Assembly: GCA_017514905.1 (NCBI GenBank)
Contig: JAFWIK010000021.1
Span: 1 to 46,903, forward strand
DNA: 46,903 bases
Source of the DNA: Candidatus Saccharimonadota bacterium
Lineage (GTDB): Bacteria > Patescibacteriota > Saccharimonadia > Saccharimonadales > Saccharimonadaceae
Direction: 5' to 3'
Positions within the stretch are counted from its first letter, which is position 1; each line of letters begins with the position of its first letter. The translations under genes were made by a program, and so were the position numbers. The notes under the pieces are model-generated. The model was not told the origin of the DNA. It was given only the letters and a program-made list of their open reading frames with translations, and did not search any database. Below are positions 2,866 through 29,487 of the stretch, piece after piece.

Positions 2866-5305
2866 TTAATTCAAGTCTGGCTTTGATTTCATTTTTACCA
2901 ATTTCAATCGCTCGCATGAGCGTCGGGTCATCTTTCATCGGCTCAAAGAACTCACAGAATTTACCGAATTCTTCCCCAGTCCGCGCTAACCTGCCAATCA
3001 CCATCGGATAATCGCTCAGTGTCTTTTCTCCGCCTGTCTTTTTAATCGTCTCCCAATTATTAATCATCCAATCAAACACTTTCATACGCGCCTTCGGATT
3101 TCGGTAAAGCCCTACAAAAAGGTGCAGCTGATCTTGCGGCTTCACCACTTCTGTATCATCCAAAAGTTTCATTACTTTGTTAAGCTCCTTTTGATCGCGC
3201 ACCAAAGTCGCAGCCGCTAGATAATCAAATTTCACATCTGGATCGGCAACTGTTTGATACTTTTCTAAATATTCGTCCACTATTTCGGACTTCAAATAAA
3301 TCTTCGCACTCAAAATATTATCGCGAATCTCCGTATCCATTTTTTTATAGTCTTCTTGGTACCAGTTAGCTAATTCTTTAAAACGCTTCTTATCCTCCGC
3401 ATAATAATCTAGCGCCATCAAATTCGCCCTCAGCCTAATCGTATTTTCACTATCGTTCTCACCCGTTTTCATACCTACTTCGTCCAACTTCCGATCTACT
3501 AATTTCAAAACATATTTCTTTAACATCTTTTCTTCTTCTGATTCATCATCAACATAAACCACCAAATTACTTATGAGCCCTGCCACTTTATTCCAAACTG
3601 CCGCTTGATTATCATCTTTAAAATGCATAGCAAGTGGTACTAGTGAAGCCGCACTCTGTATTCCAGCCTTCGTAATCAAATCTCGATCAATTAGAAGCCT
3701 CAACTTTTCTTCTAATCCTAATTTGTCAAATTTTTCCAATCTTTCCGCAAACTCCGTTTCCGTCAAATTCAACACATAATGCCCGCTCATATCCTCTGTC
3801 ACTCGTGGAATCGGCCACTCGCCTTTCTCGCACGGCCCATCCAACAAAAATCTTTGCTGGTTAAATTTCTCAAAGTTCCCTTCTTCATTAGTAATTACGG
3901 GATAACCTGGTTTGTCAATAAAGGCATGCATTAATCTCTTTGGATCAAATTCAGCGTATGGCTTCAAAGCATCCCACAAATCATCACCCACTGTGTTCCG
4001 ATATTGAAACTTTTTGAAATAATCACGAATTCCTTTGCAAAACTCTTCCCAGCCCGTCAAACGAATGAGCATCAGCATTAATCTCGCGCCCTTCGCATAC
4101 ACAATTGCTCCATCAAATAATGTTGCAATTTCTTCCGGACTTTTTACTTCCTGATGTACCGACTGCACGCCTTTATATGCGTCTCTTAGCAAAGCCGCAT
4201 AAGCATCACTAGTAAAGAACGCCTCAAAAATCTTATACTCCGGATGGATATAATCCGTCGCATAATATTCCATCACCGAAGCAAACGATTCATTCAGCCA
4301 CAGATCATCCCACCATTTCATTGTCACAAGATCGCCAAACCACTGATGTGAAAGTTCATGCGAAACAGTTAAAGCCACCGACTTTTTAGTACCAAGCGTT
4401 GCGTTTGGAGATGCTAGCATCATTGATTCACGATAAGTCACGAGCCCCCAGTTTTCCATCGCTCCTGCCTCAAAATCCGGTAAAGCCACCTGGTCCAATT
4501 TTTTCAAAGGATAAGGTAAGCCAAAATTGTCATCATAAAACTCCAGCGCTCTTGCCGCAATTTCATTAGCAAAATCAACTGATTCAACATCTTGGTTCAA
4601 GGCACAATAGGTTGTAATTTCTACACCATGTTTATTATTCACTGTTCGCCCATGAAACTTGCCAATTACCCAAGCAAGCAGATATGTCGACATCCGTGGC
4701 GTCGGCTCGAACGACACCACTTTAGCGCCAGAGCAAAAATTCGGTTCGGCGCCGCGTCCGGCCGGCCCGTCGCCACGGGCGGCCGGCGCTAATTCTCGCG
4801 CTGCCGCGCTCCGCAATGCGCCGAACCGAACTTTAGCCTCTGGCGTATTAGCCAGTATCGCATCGTTCGAGCCTTTCGGCACGGCTATCGACAGCTCAAA
4901 TACAGCTTTGGCGGCCGGTTCATCAATGCACGGAAACGCTTCCCGCGCATAATGACTCTCGAATTGTGTCGCCACAATCGTTTCAGTTTTACCGTTATAC
5001 TCATACGTCGACAAATATGCACCCTGCATATTTTCATTCAATTTACCGTGATAGAAAATCCTGATTTCCGCATTACCCAGTGACACATCCTTGATCTCTA
5101 AAGTCTTTCCATCAGCTTTATACTGCACTTCCTTACCATCAACAAAAACATCTGTAATTTCCAGATTCACAGCGTGAAACTTAACTATTTCATTTGAAAT
5201 TTTACCAATAACAACTATTTCTCCACCAATCGTCTTTTTATTTTTGTCAATCGCTAGATTTAAAACATACTTCTCTGGTACAAAATAATCTAAAAATCTT
5301 TCCAC
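2810..5305 (-). CDS. M1-family aminopeptidase with in-frame palindromic insertion
   Basis: Zinc metalloaminopeptidase of the M1 (PepN/aminopeptidase N) family, removing N-terminal residues from peptides, probably in the cytoplasm because no signal peptide is visible. It has the exopeptidase motif GAMEN (about residue 280), the zinc site HELSH (about 313-317) and the downstream NESFA glutamate. The start is GTG, preceded by a strong Shine-Dalgarno (AAGGGGGTAAG), 9 nt after the ftsH stop, so ftsH and this gene form an operon. Residues about 145-200, between the conserved VPKG segment and FEPTPRMSTY, carry a GC-rich insert read as [19 protein letters not shown]. This is copy 1 of a three-copy palindromic element (4704-4873). 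The insertion is in frame and the catalytic domain is intact, so the enzyme is probably functional. At 831 residues it is of usual size for the family. Its C-terminus overlaps proS on the other strand. Confidence 0.95.
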   Translation of the reverse strand: MERFLDYFVPEKYVLNLAIDKNKKTIGGEIVVIGKISNEIVKFHAVNLEITDVFVDGKEVQYKADGKTLEIKDVSLGNAEIRIFYHGKLNENMQGAYLSTYEYNGKTETIVATQFESHYAREAFPCIDEPAAKAVFELSIAVPKGSNDAILANTPEAKVRFGALRSAAARELAPAARGDGPAGRGAEPNFCSGAKVVSFEPTPRMSTYLLAWVIGKFHGRTVNNKHGVEITTYCALNQDVESVDFANEIAARALEFYDDNFGLPYPLKKLDQVALPDFEAGAMENWGLVTYRESMMLASPNATLGTKKSVALTVSHELSHQWFGDLVTMKWWDDLWLNESFASVMEYYATDYIHPEYKIFEAFFTSDAYAALLRDAYKGVQSVHQEVKSPEEIATLFDGAIVYAKGARLMLMLIRLTGWEEFCKGIRDYFKKFQYRNTVGDDLWDALKPYAEFDPKRLMHAFIDKPGYPVITNEEGNFEKFNQQRFLLDGPCEKGEWPIPRVTEDMSGHYVLNLTETEFAERLEKFDKLGLEEKLRLLIDRDLITKAGIQSAASLVPLAMHFKDDNQAAVWNKVAGLISNLVVYVDDESEEEKMLKKYVLKLVDRKLDEVGMKTGENDSENTIRLRANLMALDYYAEDKKRFKELANWYQEDYKKMDTEIRDNILSAKIYLKSEIVDEYLEKYQTVADPDVKFDYLAAATLVRDQKELNKVMKLLDDTEVVKPQDQLHLFVGLYRNPKARMKVFDWMINNWETIKKTGGEKTLSDYPMVIGRLARTGEEFGKFCEFFEPMKDDPTLMRAIEIGKNEIKARLELIKKNQKEVVDQICRFCDR
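4704..4873. repeat. Palindromic protein-coding insertion element, copy 1 (in aminopeptidase gene)
   Basis: The 60-bp GC-rich core is at 4754-4813 (starts GCGTCCGGCCGGCCCGTCGC on the plus strand, ends CTGCCGCGCTCCG). It differs from the other cores only at its position 41: copy 3 is identical and copy 2 differs by one base. The core holds two hairpin modules (GCCCGT-CGCC-ACGGGC and GCGC-TGCC-GCGC). It is flanked by imperfect inverted arms unique to this site. The outermost matches are GGCTCGAACGA (4704-4714) with TCGTTCGAGCC (4863-4873). The innermost are TTCGGTTCGGCGC with GCGCCGAACCGAA. The host gene reads through the core without a stop. Confidence 0.9.
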
Positions 5306-7469: not shown

Positions 7470-7476
7470 AAACCAT

Positions 7477-7540
7477 CTGGGTGTGGCGCAGTTGGTAGCG
7501 CTTTAGCGTAGGGACGCTGAGGTCGTCAGTTCAAGTCACA
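7477..7540 (+). pseudogene. Degenerate tRNA-Pro copy
   Basis: It begins like its neighbour tRNA-Pro(CGG) (CTGGGTGTGGCGCAGTTGG) and shares GACGCTGAGGTCGTCAGTTC. The anticodon loop is one base short (TAGGGA between TAGCG and CGCTG). The 3' T-arm and acceptor are lost: after TTCAAGTCA the sequence is unrelated and no CACCCAG/CCA follows. It is best read as a broken tandem duplicate. It sits between two intact proline tRNAs, so it would be transcribed as spacer. Confidence 0.85.
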
Positions 7541-7551
7541 AATCATCATTT

Positions 7552-7961: not shown

Positions 7962-10160
7962 TCATCCCTTAAACACTGGCAAATCATCTGGAAACGGATC
8001 AAAATCCGATTCACCAAAATCACCCGAAAAATCCGAAGAACTTGAAAAATCCATAAACCCATCCCCATTTTCATCTTTATAACCCATCGAACCGACATCA
8101 TACCCTTTGGAGCCAGTACTATATCCCGCCGAACCATATGGATTATATCCTAACTCCGTCAAAAATCGCGACGGCATATTATAGTTTCTCGACCCGTATG
8201 AATATCGCGATGCTGCATAGGTCAAAAAGAGTTTTTTCATTGCGCGTGTCATTCCTACATATGCTAAACGTCTTTCTTCTTCCATTTCTTCTTCTTTTTC
8301 AGCCGCTCTGCCGCCTGGAAAAAGTCCCTCTTCCATCCCTACAATAAAAACTACCGGGAACTCCAAACCTTTCGCTGCATGCAAAGTCATTAGTGTTACG
8401 GAATTTTTCACAGTCGCCTCATCCGCCGACGACATTAAACTCGCATCCGCCAAAAAATCCTCCAAGGTATTATATTCCGCTGCTTGTGCGCCGAGAACTT
8501 CCAAGTTTCGCATCCGCTCTTCACTGCTTGGTGTGCCATCATCCGTAAGAGTTTTAAAATCAAAATACTCCACTACGCGCCTCACAATTTCGCCCGGATT
8601 ATCGCCTTCTTTTACAGACTTCAAAAATCCAATCAATTTTAATAATCCATTTTTTGCCTTCGCCGCATTCAAAACCTCCACAAGATCCGGATCAAGCAAA
8701 GGTTTTTCTCCCGAAATCGCATCTAGTCCCGCCAAAACCTTCGCAAGCGATACCTCTCCCACGCCAGAAAGCACGTTATTAAACACCCGCGCGAGGCTCA
8801 CTTTGTCCCGCTGATTTATGACCAAACGCAAAATCGCTAGCACGTCTTTTACTTCCTTCCGATCATAAAATCTCACTCCACCCACAATTTTATACGGAAT
8901 CTGCATATTCATAAACGCTTTTTCAAACGCATACGACTGTGCATTCGTCCGATAAAGCACCGCAAAATCCGCTAAATCCGGAAATTCGCTCTTCAAATTC
9001 AGAATCTTAAGCGCCACAAAGTTCGCCTCCGCATTTTCATCCTGCAAAGATTCTATGTCTACAGGCTCGCCTTTATCTGCATCAGTAAACAAAGTTTTTT
9101 CTGTTCGCATTTTATTCTCATTAATTATTTTCTGCGATGCCGCCAAAATATTCCCCGTCGAACGATAATTTTGCTCCAGTTTAATCACCTTCGCTCCAGG
9201 AAAATCTTTTTCAAAATTCAGAATATTAGTAAAATCCGCTCCCCGCCACGAATAAATTGATTGCCAATCATCTCCCACTACACAAATATTTCGTTTTTCG
9301 TTCACTAGAAGTCGCACAATATTATATTGCACAACATTCGTATCCTGATATTCATCAATCAAAATATGTTCAAATCTTTCTTGCCACTTTTTTCGAATCT
9401 CCGGAAAGTTTTTCAGAAGCATCAGCTCATATAATAATAAATCGTCAAAATCAAGCGCCGCCGCTTTCTTTTTTTCTTCCTCATAACGGTAAAAAATCTT
9501 CGCAATTTTTTTCTGATTCGGATAAAAAGCCTCTGCTTCATATTCTTCTGGACCTTTACCTTGATTCTTTTCGTTCGAGATAATCGCCTGAATCGATTTC
9601 GGTTTCAAACTTTTATCGTCCGTAAATTTCAACTCCTTCATAATCCGCCGCACTAAAGAAACCTGATCATCCATATCATAAATCACAAAATTCCGATCTA
9701 AGTCTAACGCCTCTGCCTCTTGCCGCAAAATTTTCACCGCAATCCCATGGAACGTCCCCATATACGGCATAAATGACCGCGGCGGCTCAGAAGCTACCTC
9801 CGCAAGAGAAGCATCATTTATGTCTCGACTCGGGGTATTCCGGAGCGCGGCAGCGCGAGGATTAGCGCCGGCCGCCCGTGGCGACGGGCCGGCCGGACGC
9901 GACCCCGAGTGAGATATAAATGATGCATTTTGCGAAAGCAGCTTCCACAGCCTCTCCCGCATTTCATTTGCCGCCTTATTGGTAAACGTTACAGCTAGAA
10001 TATTCGATGGTTTCACACCATGCGCAATTATATTTGCAATTCTATAAGTCAAAGTCCGCGTTTTCCCTGATCCTGCCCCCGCTAGAATCAACACCGGCCC
10101 TTCCAAACATTCCGCCGCCTCTTTTTGCGCCTCATTTAGACCATCAGTTATCTCATTCAT
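7962..10160 (-). CDS. UvrD/PcrA-type superfamily 1 DNA helicase with in-frame palindromic insertion
   Basis: 3'-5' SF1A helicase acting in excision repair and replication-fork maintenance. All core motifs are visible: Q-motif region (LNEAQKEAAE), Walker A AGAGSGKT (about 30-37), Ia (AVTFTNKAANEMRERL), II (ILIDEYQDTN), III (GDDWQSIYSWRGAD), V (TLHAAKGLEFPVVF) and VI (AYVGMTRA). Residues about 73-123, between MRERLWKLL and the GTFHG motif, are a roughly 50-residue insert read as [17 protein letters not shown], where PcrA has about 10 residues. This is copy 2 of the palindromic element, in opposite orientation to copy 1. The C-terminal tail is a Gly/Tyr/Ser- then Asp/Phe-rich low-complexity segment. 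The start at 10160 is chosen over 10163 because TATAAT (10172-10167) lies exactly 6 nt before it. Confidence 0.96.
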   Translation of the reverse strand: MNEITDGLNEAQKEAAECLEGPVLILAGAGSGKTRTLTYRIANIIAHGVKPSNILAVTFTNKAANEMRERLWKLLSQNASFISHSGSRPAGPSPRAAGANPRAAALRNTPSRDINDASLAEVASEPPRSFMPYMGTFHGIAVKILRQEAEALDLDRNFVIYDMDDQVSLVRRIMKELKFTDDKSLKPKSIQAIISNEKNQGKGPEEYEAEAFYPNQKKIAKIFYRYEEEKKKAAALDFDDLLLYELMLLKNFPEIRKKWQERFEHILIDEYQDTNVVQYNIVRLLVNEKRNICVVGDDWQSIYSWRGADFTNILNFEKDFPGAKVIKLEQNYRSTGNILAASQKIINENKMRTEKTLFTDADKGEPVDIESLQDENAEANFVALKILNLKSEFPDLADFAVLYRTNAQSYAFEKAFMNMQIPYKIVGGVRFYDRKEVKDVLAILRLVINQRDKVSLARVFNNVLSGVGEVSLAKVLAGLDAISGEKPLLDPDLVEVLNAAKAKNGLLKLIGFLKSVKEGDNPGEIVRRVVEYFDFKTLTDDGTPSSEERMRNLEVLGAQAAEYNTLEDFLADASLMSSADEATVKNSVTLMTLHAAKGLEFPVVFIVGMEEGLFPGGRAAEKEEEMEEERRLAYVGMTRAMKKLFLTYAASRYSYGSRNYNMPSRFLTELGYNPYGSAGYSTGSKGYDVGSMGYKDENGDGFMDFSSSSDFSGDFGESDFDPFPDDLPVFKG
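9791..9944. repeat. Palindromic protein-coding insertion element, copy 2 (in uvrD)
   Basis: The core at 9841-9900 is the reverse complement of the copy 1 core with one substitution (GAGGATTAGC against GAGAATTAGC). Locus-specific arms flank it: GCATCATTTATGTCTC (9821-9836) plus ACTCGGGGT on the left, and ACCCCGAGTGAGATATAAATG (with a short gap) plus TGCATTTTGCG on the right. Outer AAGCT/AGCTT ends are at 9791 and 9944. The element is oriented opposite to copies 1 and 3 relative to its gene. Confidence 0.9.
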
Positions 10161-23590: not shown

Positions 23591-25714
<2,124 letters not shown>

Positions 25715-27596: not shown

Positions 27597-28175
27597 TTAG
27601 AACTTTACTTCAGGAGCGTCTTTGATCTTGGCTTTCTCAGCTTCATCAACTTCGAAATAATCACGCTTCTTGAAATGACCTATCATATTATTTACCACAT
27701 TCGTCGGGAAAGTCTTGATCTTGGTGTTAAGATCTTTTGCGCCAGCATTATAGAATCTACGTGCTGCTTGGATTTTATCCTCAACATCTTGAAGTTGCGA
27801 TTGCAATTTCACAAAATTTTCGTTCGCTTTGAGTTCTGGATAAGCTTCAGCTAACGCAAAAATTCTACCCAGTGCGCCTTGCATTTCCTTTTCAGCTTCT
27901 GCGGCTTGCTTCACGGTCTTTGCACCCATCGAAGCCGACCTAGCTTCCGTCACCATTTGGAAGGTTTCTTTTTCGTGTTTAGCATAACCTTTTACTGTCT
28001 CTACCACGTTCGGGATCAAATCCGCTCGGTATTTAAGCTGAACCGTAATGTCTGACCAAGCTTCATTAACTCGCTCATCCAGCTTTACTAAACTGTTATA
28101 AATCCCTACAATCATCGCAATGATCAAAACGACCACTGCTACAATTACAATTGCTATAATTCCACCTATAGGCAT
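27597..28175 (-). CDS. lemA: LemA family protein
   Basis: 192 residues with one N-terminal helix (IIAIVIVAVVVLIIAMIVGIYNSLV) and the conserved LemA core (DERVNEAWSDITVQLKYRADLIPNVVETVKGYAKHE, ARRFYNAGAKDLNTKIKTFP). Its function is poorly defined; LemA is often next to htpX, as here, with a 1-nt gap. A TATAAT box and an AAGGAG ribosome-binding site lie upstream, so this mRNA has a true leader. The extracytoplasmic coiled-helical domain fits an envelope role. Confidence 0.96.
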   Translation of the reverse strand: MPIGGIIAIVIVAVVVLIIAMIVGIYNSLVKLDERVNEAWSDITVQLKYRADLIPNVVETVKGYAKHEKETFQMVTEARSASMGAKTVKQAAEAEKEMQGALGRIFALAEAYPELKANENFVKLQSQLQDVEDKIQAARRFYNAGAKDLNTKIKTFPTNVVNNMIGHFKKRDYFEVDEAEKAKIKDAPEVKF

Positions 28176-28250
28176 GTTTTTCTCCTTATTTACAAAAACA
28201 TTATATCACAATTATTTTAATTATTAAAAAACTGTGTTATAATAATATCA

Positions 28251-28337
28251 ATGCGAGCGTAGCTCAGTTCCTGTTCGAGGCCCTTGTGGCCGAGTTTTAA
28301 AGACAGAACTAAACAACTGAGCGAAGTGAGCATGAAA
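28251..28337 (+). repeat. Insertion/duplication in tRNA-Gly leader: truncated tRNA 5' copy plus antisense D-arm segment
   Basis: The 19 bases ATGCGAGCGTAGCTCAGTT occur at 28251-28269 and again at 28338-28356, the start of the real tRNA. Between them is a 68-bp segment with a short GAGGCCC/GTGGCC hairpin and CTAAACAACTGAGC (28309-28322). That last segment is the exact reverse complement of the tRNA D-arm at 28348-28361. The tRNA promoter TATAAT (28238-28243) is upstream of the first copy, so the segment would be transcribed as leader. Confidence 0.75.
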
Positions 28338-28338
28338 T

Positions 28339-28415
28339 GCGAGCGTAGCTCAGTTGTTTAGAGCGCTTCCTTGCCAAGGAAGAGGTCGAGAGTTAGAGTC
28401 TCTTCGCTCGCACCA
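28339..28415 (+). tRNA. tRNA-Gly (anticodon GCC) with unusual T-loop
   Basis: Acceptor GCGAGCG pairs with CGCTCGC and CCA is encoded. The anticodon stem CTTCC/GGAAG closes the loop TTGCCAA, with anticodon GCC. The T-arm reads GAGAG-TTAGAGT-CTCTT, so the normally invariant C56 is A. Confidence 0.93.
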
Positions 28416-28424
28416 CTCAAATTT

Positions 28425-28450
28425 GCTCCAACTGGAGCTTTATTTTTTTT
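28425..28450 (+). terminator. Terminator of tRNA-Gly
   Basis: The stem GCTCC/GGAGC around AACT is followed by TTTATTTTTTTTT. Confidence 0.85.
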
Positions 28451-28515: not shown

Positions 28516-29487
28516 ATGGACATTCTATTACAACTTTTACTCTTAATCGTCGGCTTCATCTTTCTAATCAAGGGCGCTGACTGGCTAATTGCTGGCGCCT
28601 CTTCTACTGCCGCCAATTTCAAGGTTAGTAAACAATTAATTGGCCTCACCATTGTAGCTTTCGGCACCGGCGCGCCTGAGCTTGCCGTTTCCATTTCCTC
28701 CCTCGCTTCCGGCAATACCGATATGCTCCTCGGCAACGTCATCGGCAGTAACATAGTCAACATTCTGCTTCTAATTGGAATTGCTGCCACCATCCATCCT
28801 ATCAAAATCAACAAAAACACCATTTCAAAAGAGCTGCCTATGCTCCTCCTCATTTCTACTATCCTTATCGTACTGTTCCTTGATACCAGTATCATTGGCA
28901 GCATTTCTAATAGTATCGACCGTAGCGACGCCCTCATTTGTATCCTTTTCTTTGCAGTCTTCATCTACTATATCTTCAGTATGGCTCGCAAAAACCGCAA
29001 AGAAAAGAAGACTGTCGAAAAACCCGCTTACAAACTTGGTAAATCACTACTTCTTATTATTATCGGCTTAGCGGGCGTCATCGCTGGTAGCCAGCTCGTC
29101 GTCAATTCCGCATCTACAATCGCCGCCGCCATCGGTATAACAGACCGTATTATCGCTCTCACCGTAGTAGCCTTCGGTACTTCACTCCCAGAACTCGTTA
29201 CCACCATTACTGCTGCACGTAAAAATGAGCACGAACTACTCGTCGGCAACATCATCGGCAGCAATATCTTTAATATTTGTATCGTCCTCGGAATTCCTGT
29301 TGCCATCTTTGGCTCTATTACACCCGAAAGCTTCGAGATAATCGATCTCATTATGCTAATCGGCTCCGCCGTCATTCTCTGGCTCGTCGCAAGGACCGAT
29401 ACCAAGGTAACCAGAAAAGAAGGTCTGCTTATGCTTGCTATTTTCGCTATATATTATAGCTATATAATATATGGAGCTTTGGCTTGA
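28516..29487 (+). CDS. Calcium/sodium antiporter (CaCA family, YrbG-like)
   Basis: 323 residues, about ten helices, exporting Ca2+ in exchange for Na+ (or H+) across the membrane. The two alpha-repeats are clear: the first with GTGAPELAVSISSL and GNVIGSNIVNILLLIG, the second with GTSLPELVTTITAA and GNIIGSNIFNICIVLG, giving the paired Glu residues that bind the ion. The middle cytoplasmic loop is short and basic (ARKNRKEKK). Its stop codon overlaps the TTG start of the EamA transporter (TTGA), suggesting coupled translation. The length fits the YrbG/CaCA class. Confidence 0.95.
   Translation: MDILLQLLLLIVGFIFLIKGADWLIAGASSTAANFKVSKQLIGLTIVAFGTGAPELAVSISSLASGNTDMLLGNVIGSNIVNILLLIGIAATIHPIKINKNTISKELPMLLLISTILIVLFLDTSIIGSISNSIDRSDALICILFFAVFIYYIFSMARKNRKEKKTVEKPAYKLGKSLLLIIIGLAGVIAGSQLVVNSASTIAAAIGITDRIIALTVVAFGTSLPELVTTITAARKNEHELLVGNIIGSNIFNICIVLGIPVAIFGSITPESFEIIDLIMLIGSAVILWLVARTDTKVTRKEGLLMLAIFAIYYSYIIYGALA

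Follow-up and report, generated by a model that had tools for sequence, protein, structure and literature searches.

The tRNA-Gly(GCC) locus

The window, by which we mean the whole 46,903-nucleotide stretch analysed here (contig JAFWIK010000021.1, forward strand), carries an intact tRNA-Gly(GCC) gene with an encoded CCA at 28339-28415 (+), followed by an intrinsic terminator at 28425-28448 (+). Two flanking genes served as synteny markers: a divergent, putatively LemA-like neighbour at 27597-28175 (-), and a downstream membrane protein gene at 28516-29487 (+), whose product is probably of the Na+/Ca2+ exchanger family. An extended -10 promoter element, TGTTATAAT, lies at 28235-28243 (+) with its TATAAT at 28238-28243, and from this sequence transcription would be expected to start near 28250. 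The promoter assignment agrees with the TATAAT-to-tRNA spacing of ~8-10 nt in relatives that lack the element described below. These relatives have the tRNA itself at this distance; in the window, 9 nt separate the extended -10 from a duplicate of the tRNA 5' end, copy 1.

Copy 1 (28250-28269, +) comprises tRNA positions 1-17 at 28253-28269, preceded by AAT. Direct reading and a repeat search agree that the sequence AATGCGAGCGTAGCTCAGTT recurs with 20/20 identity at 28250-28269 and 28336-28355, with a period of 86. The initial annotation had described 19-bp copies on both sides of a 68-bp insert between promoter and tRNA; the duplication is real and so placed, but it extends to 20 bp, and the interval is 67 bp between 19-bp copies or 66 bp between the 20-bp copies.

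Between the copies lies a conserved core, CTGTTCGAGGCCCTTGTGGCCGAGTTTTAAAGACAG (28271-28306, +), which is delimited by two covariance models (R1 and R2) and by covariation among 15 distinct sequences. It has an outer stem CTGT/ACAG and an inner stem that pairs 28276-28282 with 28288-28294 and includes tandem G-A mismatches. We found no origin for the core elsewhere in the same genome. The core is followed by the antisense segment CTAAACAACTGAGC (28309-28322, +), which, as had been proposed, is the exact reverse complement of the tRNA D-arm segment at 28348-28361 (+), tRNA positions 10-23, and whose last 8 nt are also able to pair with copy 1. In 200 shuffles of the linker the longest complement averaged 6.5 nt and never exceeded 10, compared with 14 nt in the window, and the 60 nt upstream of 31 element-free tRNA-Gly loci reached a top pairing score of 9.9, compared with 14. 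Next comes GAAGTGAGCAT (28323-28333, +), placed by fold prediction and by-eye comparison with four other Gly elements (G156, G086, G179 and G101) as the strand opposite copy 1 in the stem closing the leader hairpin. This closing stem consists of AUGC/GCAU, GC/GU and a GA facing a GA. Because we found no second tRNA-Gly(GCC) in the 87%-complete genome, the tRNA behind this element must be made.

A family of tRNA-leader elements

Short hairpin elements before tRNA genes in Saccharibacteria apparently form a family without earlier description, and the literature searched, largely open-access papers, contained no precedent for them. We found about 40 related elements, sometimes in tandem, with the order promoter, 5' tRNA copy, ~37-nt hairpin core, linker and intact tRNA. 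The core consensus is CTGTnCGAGG-stem-CCGAG-n-ACAG, and at least eight isotypes carry the element: Gly, Ile, Lys (both), Val, Ala, Thr, Gln and Met.

A spacer search of 174 congeners recovered the same arrangement before tRNA-Gly in three genomes (G156, G086 and G179) and, in G121, before tRNA-Ile, where that tRNA's own 5' end is duplicated. A loose core pattern added G101, G005 (Ile), G008 (Lys) and tandem arrays in G094 and G115, in both of which the contig ends within the array, and covariance model R1 of the core added Lys and Val cases. The strict model places the element in 13/174 congeners, and the overall figure is ~15-17/174. With R1, a phylum-wide search gave no match outside the genus; nevertheless, restriction to the genus was rejected when the broader model R2, built from 17 copies and run across the family, found members throughout it. 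R2 gave 17/174 congeners at E≤0.1, the last two of them weak, and 41/394 genomes in 16/61 genera of the family at E≤0.02. About 90% of genomes are thus without the element.

Thirty-nine further places were inspected, and in 32 a downstream tRNA has its 5' end copied before the core; the rest comprise weak matches and units of arrays that run into a contig end. No convincing core match fell outside tRNA leaders and contig-end arrays of tRNA 5' copies, and core matches without a tRNA (e.g., L295, L302 and L289) are weak or due to chance. The tandem arrays have periods of ~103-129 bp (L278 on G693:C40, with three copies; L117 in G094; L118 in G115; L300 in G708; L307 in G648). A pattern scan of 85k species matched at least 80 records. 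Among the matches listed, all seven from Saccharibacteria, whose sources include the gut of sheep, goat and roe deer, lie in a tRNA leader or a tRNA-copy array, about 73 are chance matches with no tRNA nearby, and none outside Saccharibacteria is near a tRNA. Misassembly, which the initial annotation had named as a way for its proposal to fail, is excluded because the same architecture recurs in independent assemblies.

Candidate identities of other kinds were also considered. A known RNA family or ribozyme was rejected, since an Rfam search was empty apart from tRNA: at the window locus the tRNA alone reached the gathering threshold (the best leader match had an E of 0.64), and 13 related loci returned tRNA only. 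A phage, plasmid or viral carrier was likewise rejected. The exact core pattern had no match in genome-contig and viral-contig collections, phage and plasmid collections gave no core match, and three viral-contig matches without a tRNA are apparently chance.

The elements track their host tRNA

Copy 1 starts at tRNA position 1 and extends to position 17-24, or to 29-30 in tRNA-Gln. In many elements a short sense stretch after the core completes the stem of the arm (AGCACC in Lys, GAGCGCC in Val and, as the anticodon-stem strand, TCCCGT in Gln), followed by a tight turn, the antisense strand, a spacer and the tRNA. From the extent of copy 1 and the stem-completing stretch, it follows that the core stands where the loop of a tRNA arm would be: the D-loop in all isotypes but Gln, and the anticodon loop in Gln. 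A promoter directly precedes copy 1 in most loci.

Uninterrupted pairing of the linker with its own tRNA spans 9-19 bp in 36 of 42 elements. Long antisense is absent from the Ile elements, some Lys elements (these two making up what we call type B) and one Val element. The mean pairing score was 12.7 with the element's own tRNA versus 8.4 with tRNAs of other isotypes. The control values were 6.3 for the 31 Gly loci without an element and a mean of 6.5 for the 38 tRNA kinds of the window genome, the window's tRNA-Gly included. Antisense:tRNA pairing is conserved between isotypes, with G-U pairs tolerated, and the antisense mirrors lineage-specific tRNA changes: T or C at position 16 of Thr, an extra D-loop base in G589, GAGCGT versus GAGCGC in Val, changes at Val 28-29, and changes in Ala-GGC.

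The core itself covaries. Across the 15 distinct cores, 99.2% of stem cells are paired, the stem pairs varying among C-G, G-C and U-A, and at two of these pairs both partners have changed, in 10 cells altogether, versus 2.2 in shuffles and 0-2 in slid controls. The closing stem on copy 1 was compared by eye in five Gly elements. Position -2 is A-U, U-A or G-C; positions 5-6 are GC/GU, GC/GC or AU/AU, following the tRNA acceptor stem; and in G101 copy 1 has an A opposite U where its tRNA has a G. These paired changes would reflect either selection on the folded strand or repair of the arm by template switching.

Such local copying could in principle account for the whole arrangement. If so, the element would be a neutral scar left behind by template switching or by an unequal duplication in tandem, its core neither mobile nor functional. 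Direct and inverted copying beside an original is the mark of template switching (PMC8794818), and the window genome is rich in tandem tRNA copies and in fragments of tRNA 3' ends. Nevertheless, the same ~37-nt core with a covarying stem stands at the junction in dozens of loci, it does not come from the neighbourhood, and it is absent elsewhere in the genome. We therefore consider a neutral scar improbable.

Predicted folding of the leader and the tRNA precursor

Fold prediction turns the window leader alone into one long hairpin closed on copy 1 (-27.8 kcal/mol, z -2.8). Leader and tRNA together give a fold of -66.6 kcal/mol (z -4.6) in which the antisense strand holds the D-arm and copy 1 pairs with the 3' acceptor strand of the tRNA. 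The leader hairpin plus the cloverleaf sums to -54.0 kcal/mol, so that the D-arm-trapped fold is better by 12.6 kcal/mol, an equilibrium value for unmodified RNA that ignores tRNA modification and co-transcriptional order. The earlier suggestion that the precursor can misfold so as to hide the D-arm is thus supported by prediction, and the antisense pairing recurs, with other sequences, before other tRNAs. On the same basis, the trapped state is favoured by 11-16 kcal/mol in five Gly elements and one Lys element and by 7 kcal/mol in the other antisense-bearing Lys element.

These folds raise the possibility of a cis-acting RNA leader that controls tRNA maturation through two alternative antisense pairings. 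The antisense would lie either on copy 1, leaving the tRNA free, or on the D-arm, with copy 1 on the 3' acceptor strand and the tRNA trapped, and a signal or the folding kinetics would set the choice. The predicted trapping in the Gly and Lys elements, the conservation of antisense:tRNA pairing between isotypes, the paired changes in the Gly-group leader hairpin and the promoter immediately 5' of copy 1 in most loci would all fit such a model. In the Gly group both pairings are indeed possible. However, the antisense of Gln and many Lys elements can pair with the tRNA only and not with copy 1, and for this reason a two-state switch common to all elements was rejected. Furthermore, the folds disregard tRNA modification and co-transcriptional order, the isotype varies without pattern, and ~90% of genomes, the nearest relatives among them, do without the element; so diverse a set of tRNAs and so patchy a distribution speak against a dedicated regulator. 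Taken together, we regard regulation of tRNA maturation as unlikely, though it is the strongest competitor of the reading that we favour.

T-box and other switching leaders also use alternative pairings, one partner being a tRNA. The tRNA-leader element differs from a T-box in that its pairing partner is the tRNA of the same transcript, and Rfam recognised no T-box or other family in the leader, the tRNA alone being found.

Empty sites and turnover

The same locus was compared in related genomes. The nearest relatives, G111 (phosphoglycerate kinase, PGK, 84% identical) and G127, share the LemA/tRNA-Gly/exchanger synteny and have no 5' element, and copy 1 of the window stands where their tRNA stands. 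An insertion with target duplication, as first suggested, therefore fits this locus, but a one-off scar does not, given the ~40 related elements. Element-bearing genomes are scattered on a PGK tree and require 5 changes, at least 3 of them on well-supported branches, in a tree of one protein whose bootstrap values are unsettled. The tRNA-Ile cores of G005 and G121 are one base apart, and these genomes lie far apart on the tree, their PGK being 56% and 62% identical, respectively, to that of the window genome.

Three states of the tRNA-Gly locus occur within a single clade (G179, G008 and G022) that has one upstream gene in common: G179 has the 5' element, G008 is empty, and G022 has a downstream tRNA-like copy with a related core. 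The last of these (L011) lies directly 3' of tRNA-Gly(GCC) and is a complete tRNA-Gly-like sequence whose D-loop contains a core-like hairpin; a GC hairpin with a GAA loop replaces its anticodon arm, the T-arm is intact and CCA is present.

This complete version, with its T-arm, CCA and GAA-loop arm in place of the anticodon arm, would suit a derived tRNA-like RNA gene, in which the truncated copy, its D-loop bearing the core, gives a stable small RNA beside the parent tRNA. The conserved core fits as well, and the leader would be freed as a discrete RNA when RNase P cuts the downstream tRNA. On the other hand, most copies lack the 3' half, occurrence is sporadic, and copy 1 has decayed in several Thr, Val and Ala elements. 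We give this explanation little credence.

Other repeats in the same genome

The window genome contains further tRNA-derived repeats. Of its 41 tRNAs, 14 have a 12-22-nt duplicate of their own 3' end no more than 350 bp downstream (examples are loci L069, L075, L082, L212, L064 and L072); the shortest, behind Pro-TGG, is explained by a neighbouring tRNA-Pro. Several of these copies sit behind hairpins with a stem antisense to the copy. At Arg-TCG, Val-TAC, Asn and Leu-CAG the 3' copy closes a junction-type RNA fold, and at other such loci a short hairpin is antisense to the T-arm and in some cases repeated in tandem (Tyr, Ser-CGA and Arg-CCT). A degenerate tRNA-Pro copy at 7476-7551 of the window lies directly 5' of tRNA-Pro(CGG); it is 92% identical over tRNA positions 1-61 and has lost the 3' acceptor strand.

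In-frame GC-rich insertions occur at 4740-4830, 9811-9926 and 25097-25217 of the window, in minus-strand genes for a putative M1-type aminopeptidase, UvrD/PcrA-type helicase and NAD-dependent DNA ligase, respectively. They have in common a 61-bp GC-rich core, which is matched at 19 places in the genome, mostly with >80% identity, and each has locus-specific inverted arms of ~11-28 bp; they resemble palindromic elements within coding genes. At the nucleotide level neither G111 nor G127 has the insert in its LigA or M1 gene, while in G111 the same site of UvrD is occupied by a GC-rich insert different from this one. A core common to the tRNA-leader and in-gene elements was rejected by sequence. 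The echo between the two that the initial annotation had noted is thus one of analogy, each having a conserved core and locus-specific inverted arms. The 3' tRNA-fragment elements, as a mirror image, and the in-gene elements, as a parallel, may share an arm-copying process.

Comparison with known systems

Palindromic elements of Rickettsia (RPEs), which belong with other short interspersed palindromic repeats, are tolerated inside essential genes. They are short structured repeats scattered in a reduced bacterial genome (PMC2694212), and in this respect the tRNA-leader elements are alike. However, RPE arms are element sequence and recur at unrelated sites, including protein-coding genes, whereas in the tRNA-leader elements only the core is common, copy 1 and the antisense match each host tRNA, the target is duplicated, and the core is found only in copies of tRNA arms.

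Template switching creates and repairs hairpin arms (PMC8794818) and likewise gives local reverse-complement copies. It introduces no foreign sequence, in contrast to the conserved foreign ~37-nt core of these elements; template switching alone does not supply a shared core at dozens of junctions.

Tycheposons and other tRNA-targeting islands are 4-200 kb long and use a tyrosine recombinase (PMC10872708). They share with the tRNA-leader elements a tRNA gene at the border and partial tRNA copies. The elements could be attachment-site remnants of such an integrative element, and the 3' fragments of 12-22 nt at 14 of the 41 tRNA genes in the window genome would be in keeping with this. But tyrosine-recombinase elements duplicate the 3' end of the tRNA, whereas the tRNA-leader elements copy the 5' end, and their units of ~80-150 bp (66 bp between the copies in the window) hold no gene and have no coding room. 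Nor was a larger integrase-bearing element with the core at its end seen, phage and plasmid collections lack the core, and the viral-contig matches are due to chance. An attachment-site remnant is very improbable.

A proposed origin: a sporadically gained element with template-switched arms

The same core in eight isotypes implies repeated movement or repeated capture, and arms matched to the host imply copying from each target or repeated co-adaptation. Because shared core and host-matched arms occur together, we favour, on balance, a structured, mobile-like element that is gained sporadically, spares the tRNA on insertion and has its tRNA-matched arms made by template switching. In a shortened second copy of the tRNA 5' end, the conserved ~37-nt core would replace the loop of an arm, as a rule the D-loop, so that the promoter is followed by this copy with its core, then by the antisense linker and the intact tRNA (an 86-bp period in the window). 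Local copying in direct and inverted orientation would generate the direct copy and the antisense and perhaps maintain their match to the tRNA, which would survive because a complete copy remains downstream. We infer that the core moves and that template switching makes its arms; gain and loss would be patchy, as for a mobile or laterally spreading sequence. We also infer co-transcription with the tRNA, from which RNase P would be expected to cut the element off as a leader of 80-90 nt.

No transposase, integrase or other mobilising enzyme linked to the element was identified. Against a mobile origin, the paired-change closing stem on copy 1 looks like the result of selection on the transcript and not like a neutral residue, and the missing long antisense of the type B elements also counts against it. 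In addition, shared ancestry with very many losses may be an alternative to repeated gain.

A bolder version is possible, although we would sooner doubt than accept it: a mobile RNA-like element that targets tRNA arm loops, rebuilds the adjacent intact tRNA and re-templates its terminal arms for each target, with the 3' tRNA-fragment and in-gene GC-rich elements as sister families using the same arm-copying. If this is true, each insertion would carry sense and antisense strands matched to its target. If the favoured reading holds, ultra-small symbiotic bacteria would host short elements that exploit their most conserved genes, persist by duplicating the 5' end of the target and carry strands matched to it. 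This would bear on how hairpins originate and whether selection or copying maintains their pairing, and on the maturation of essential single-copy tRNAs downstream of a leader that is predicted to trap the D-arm.
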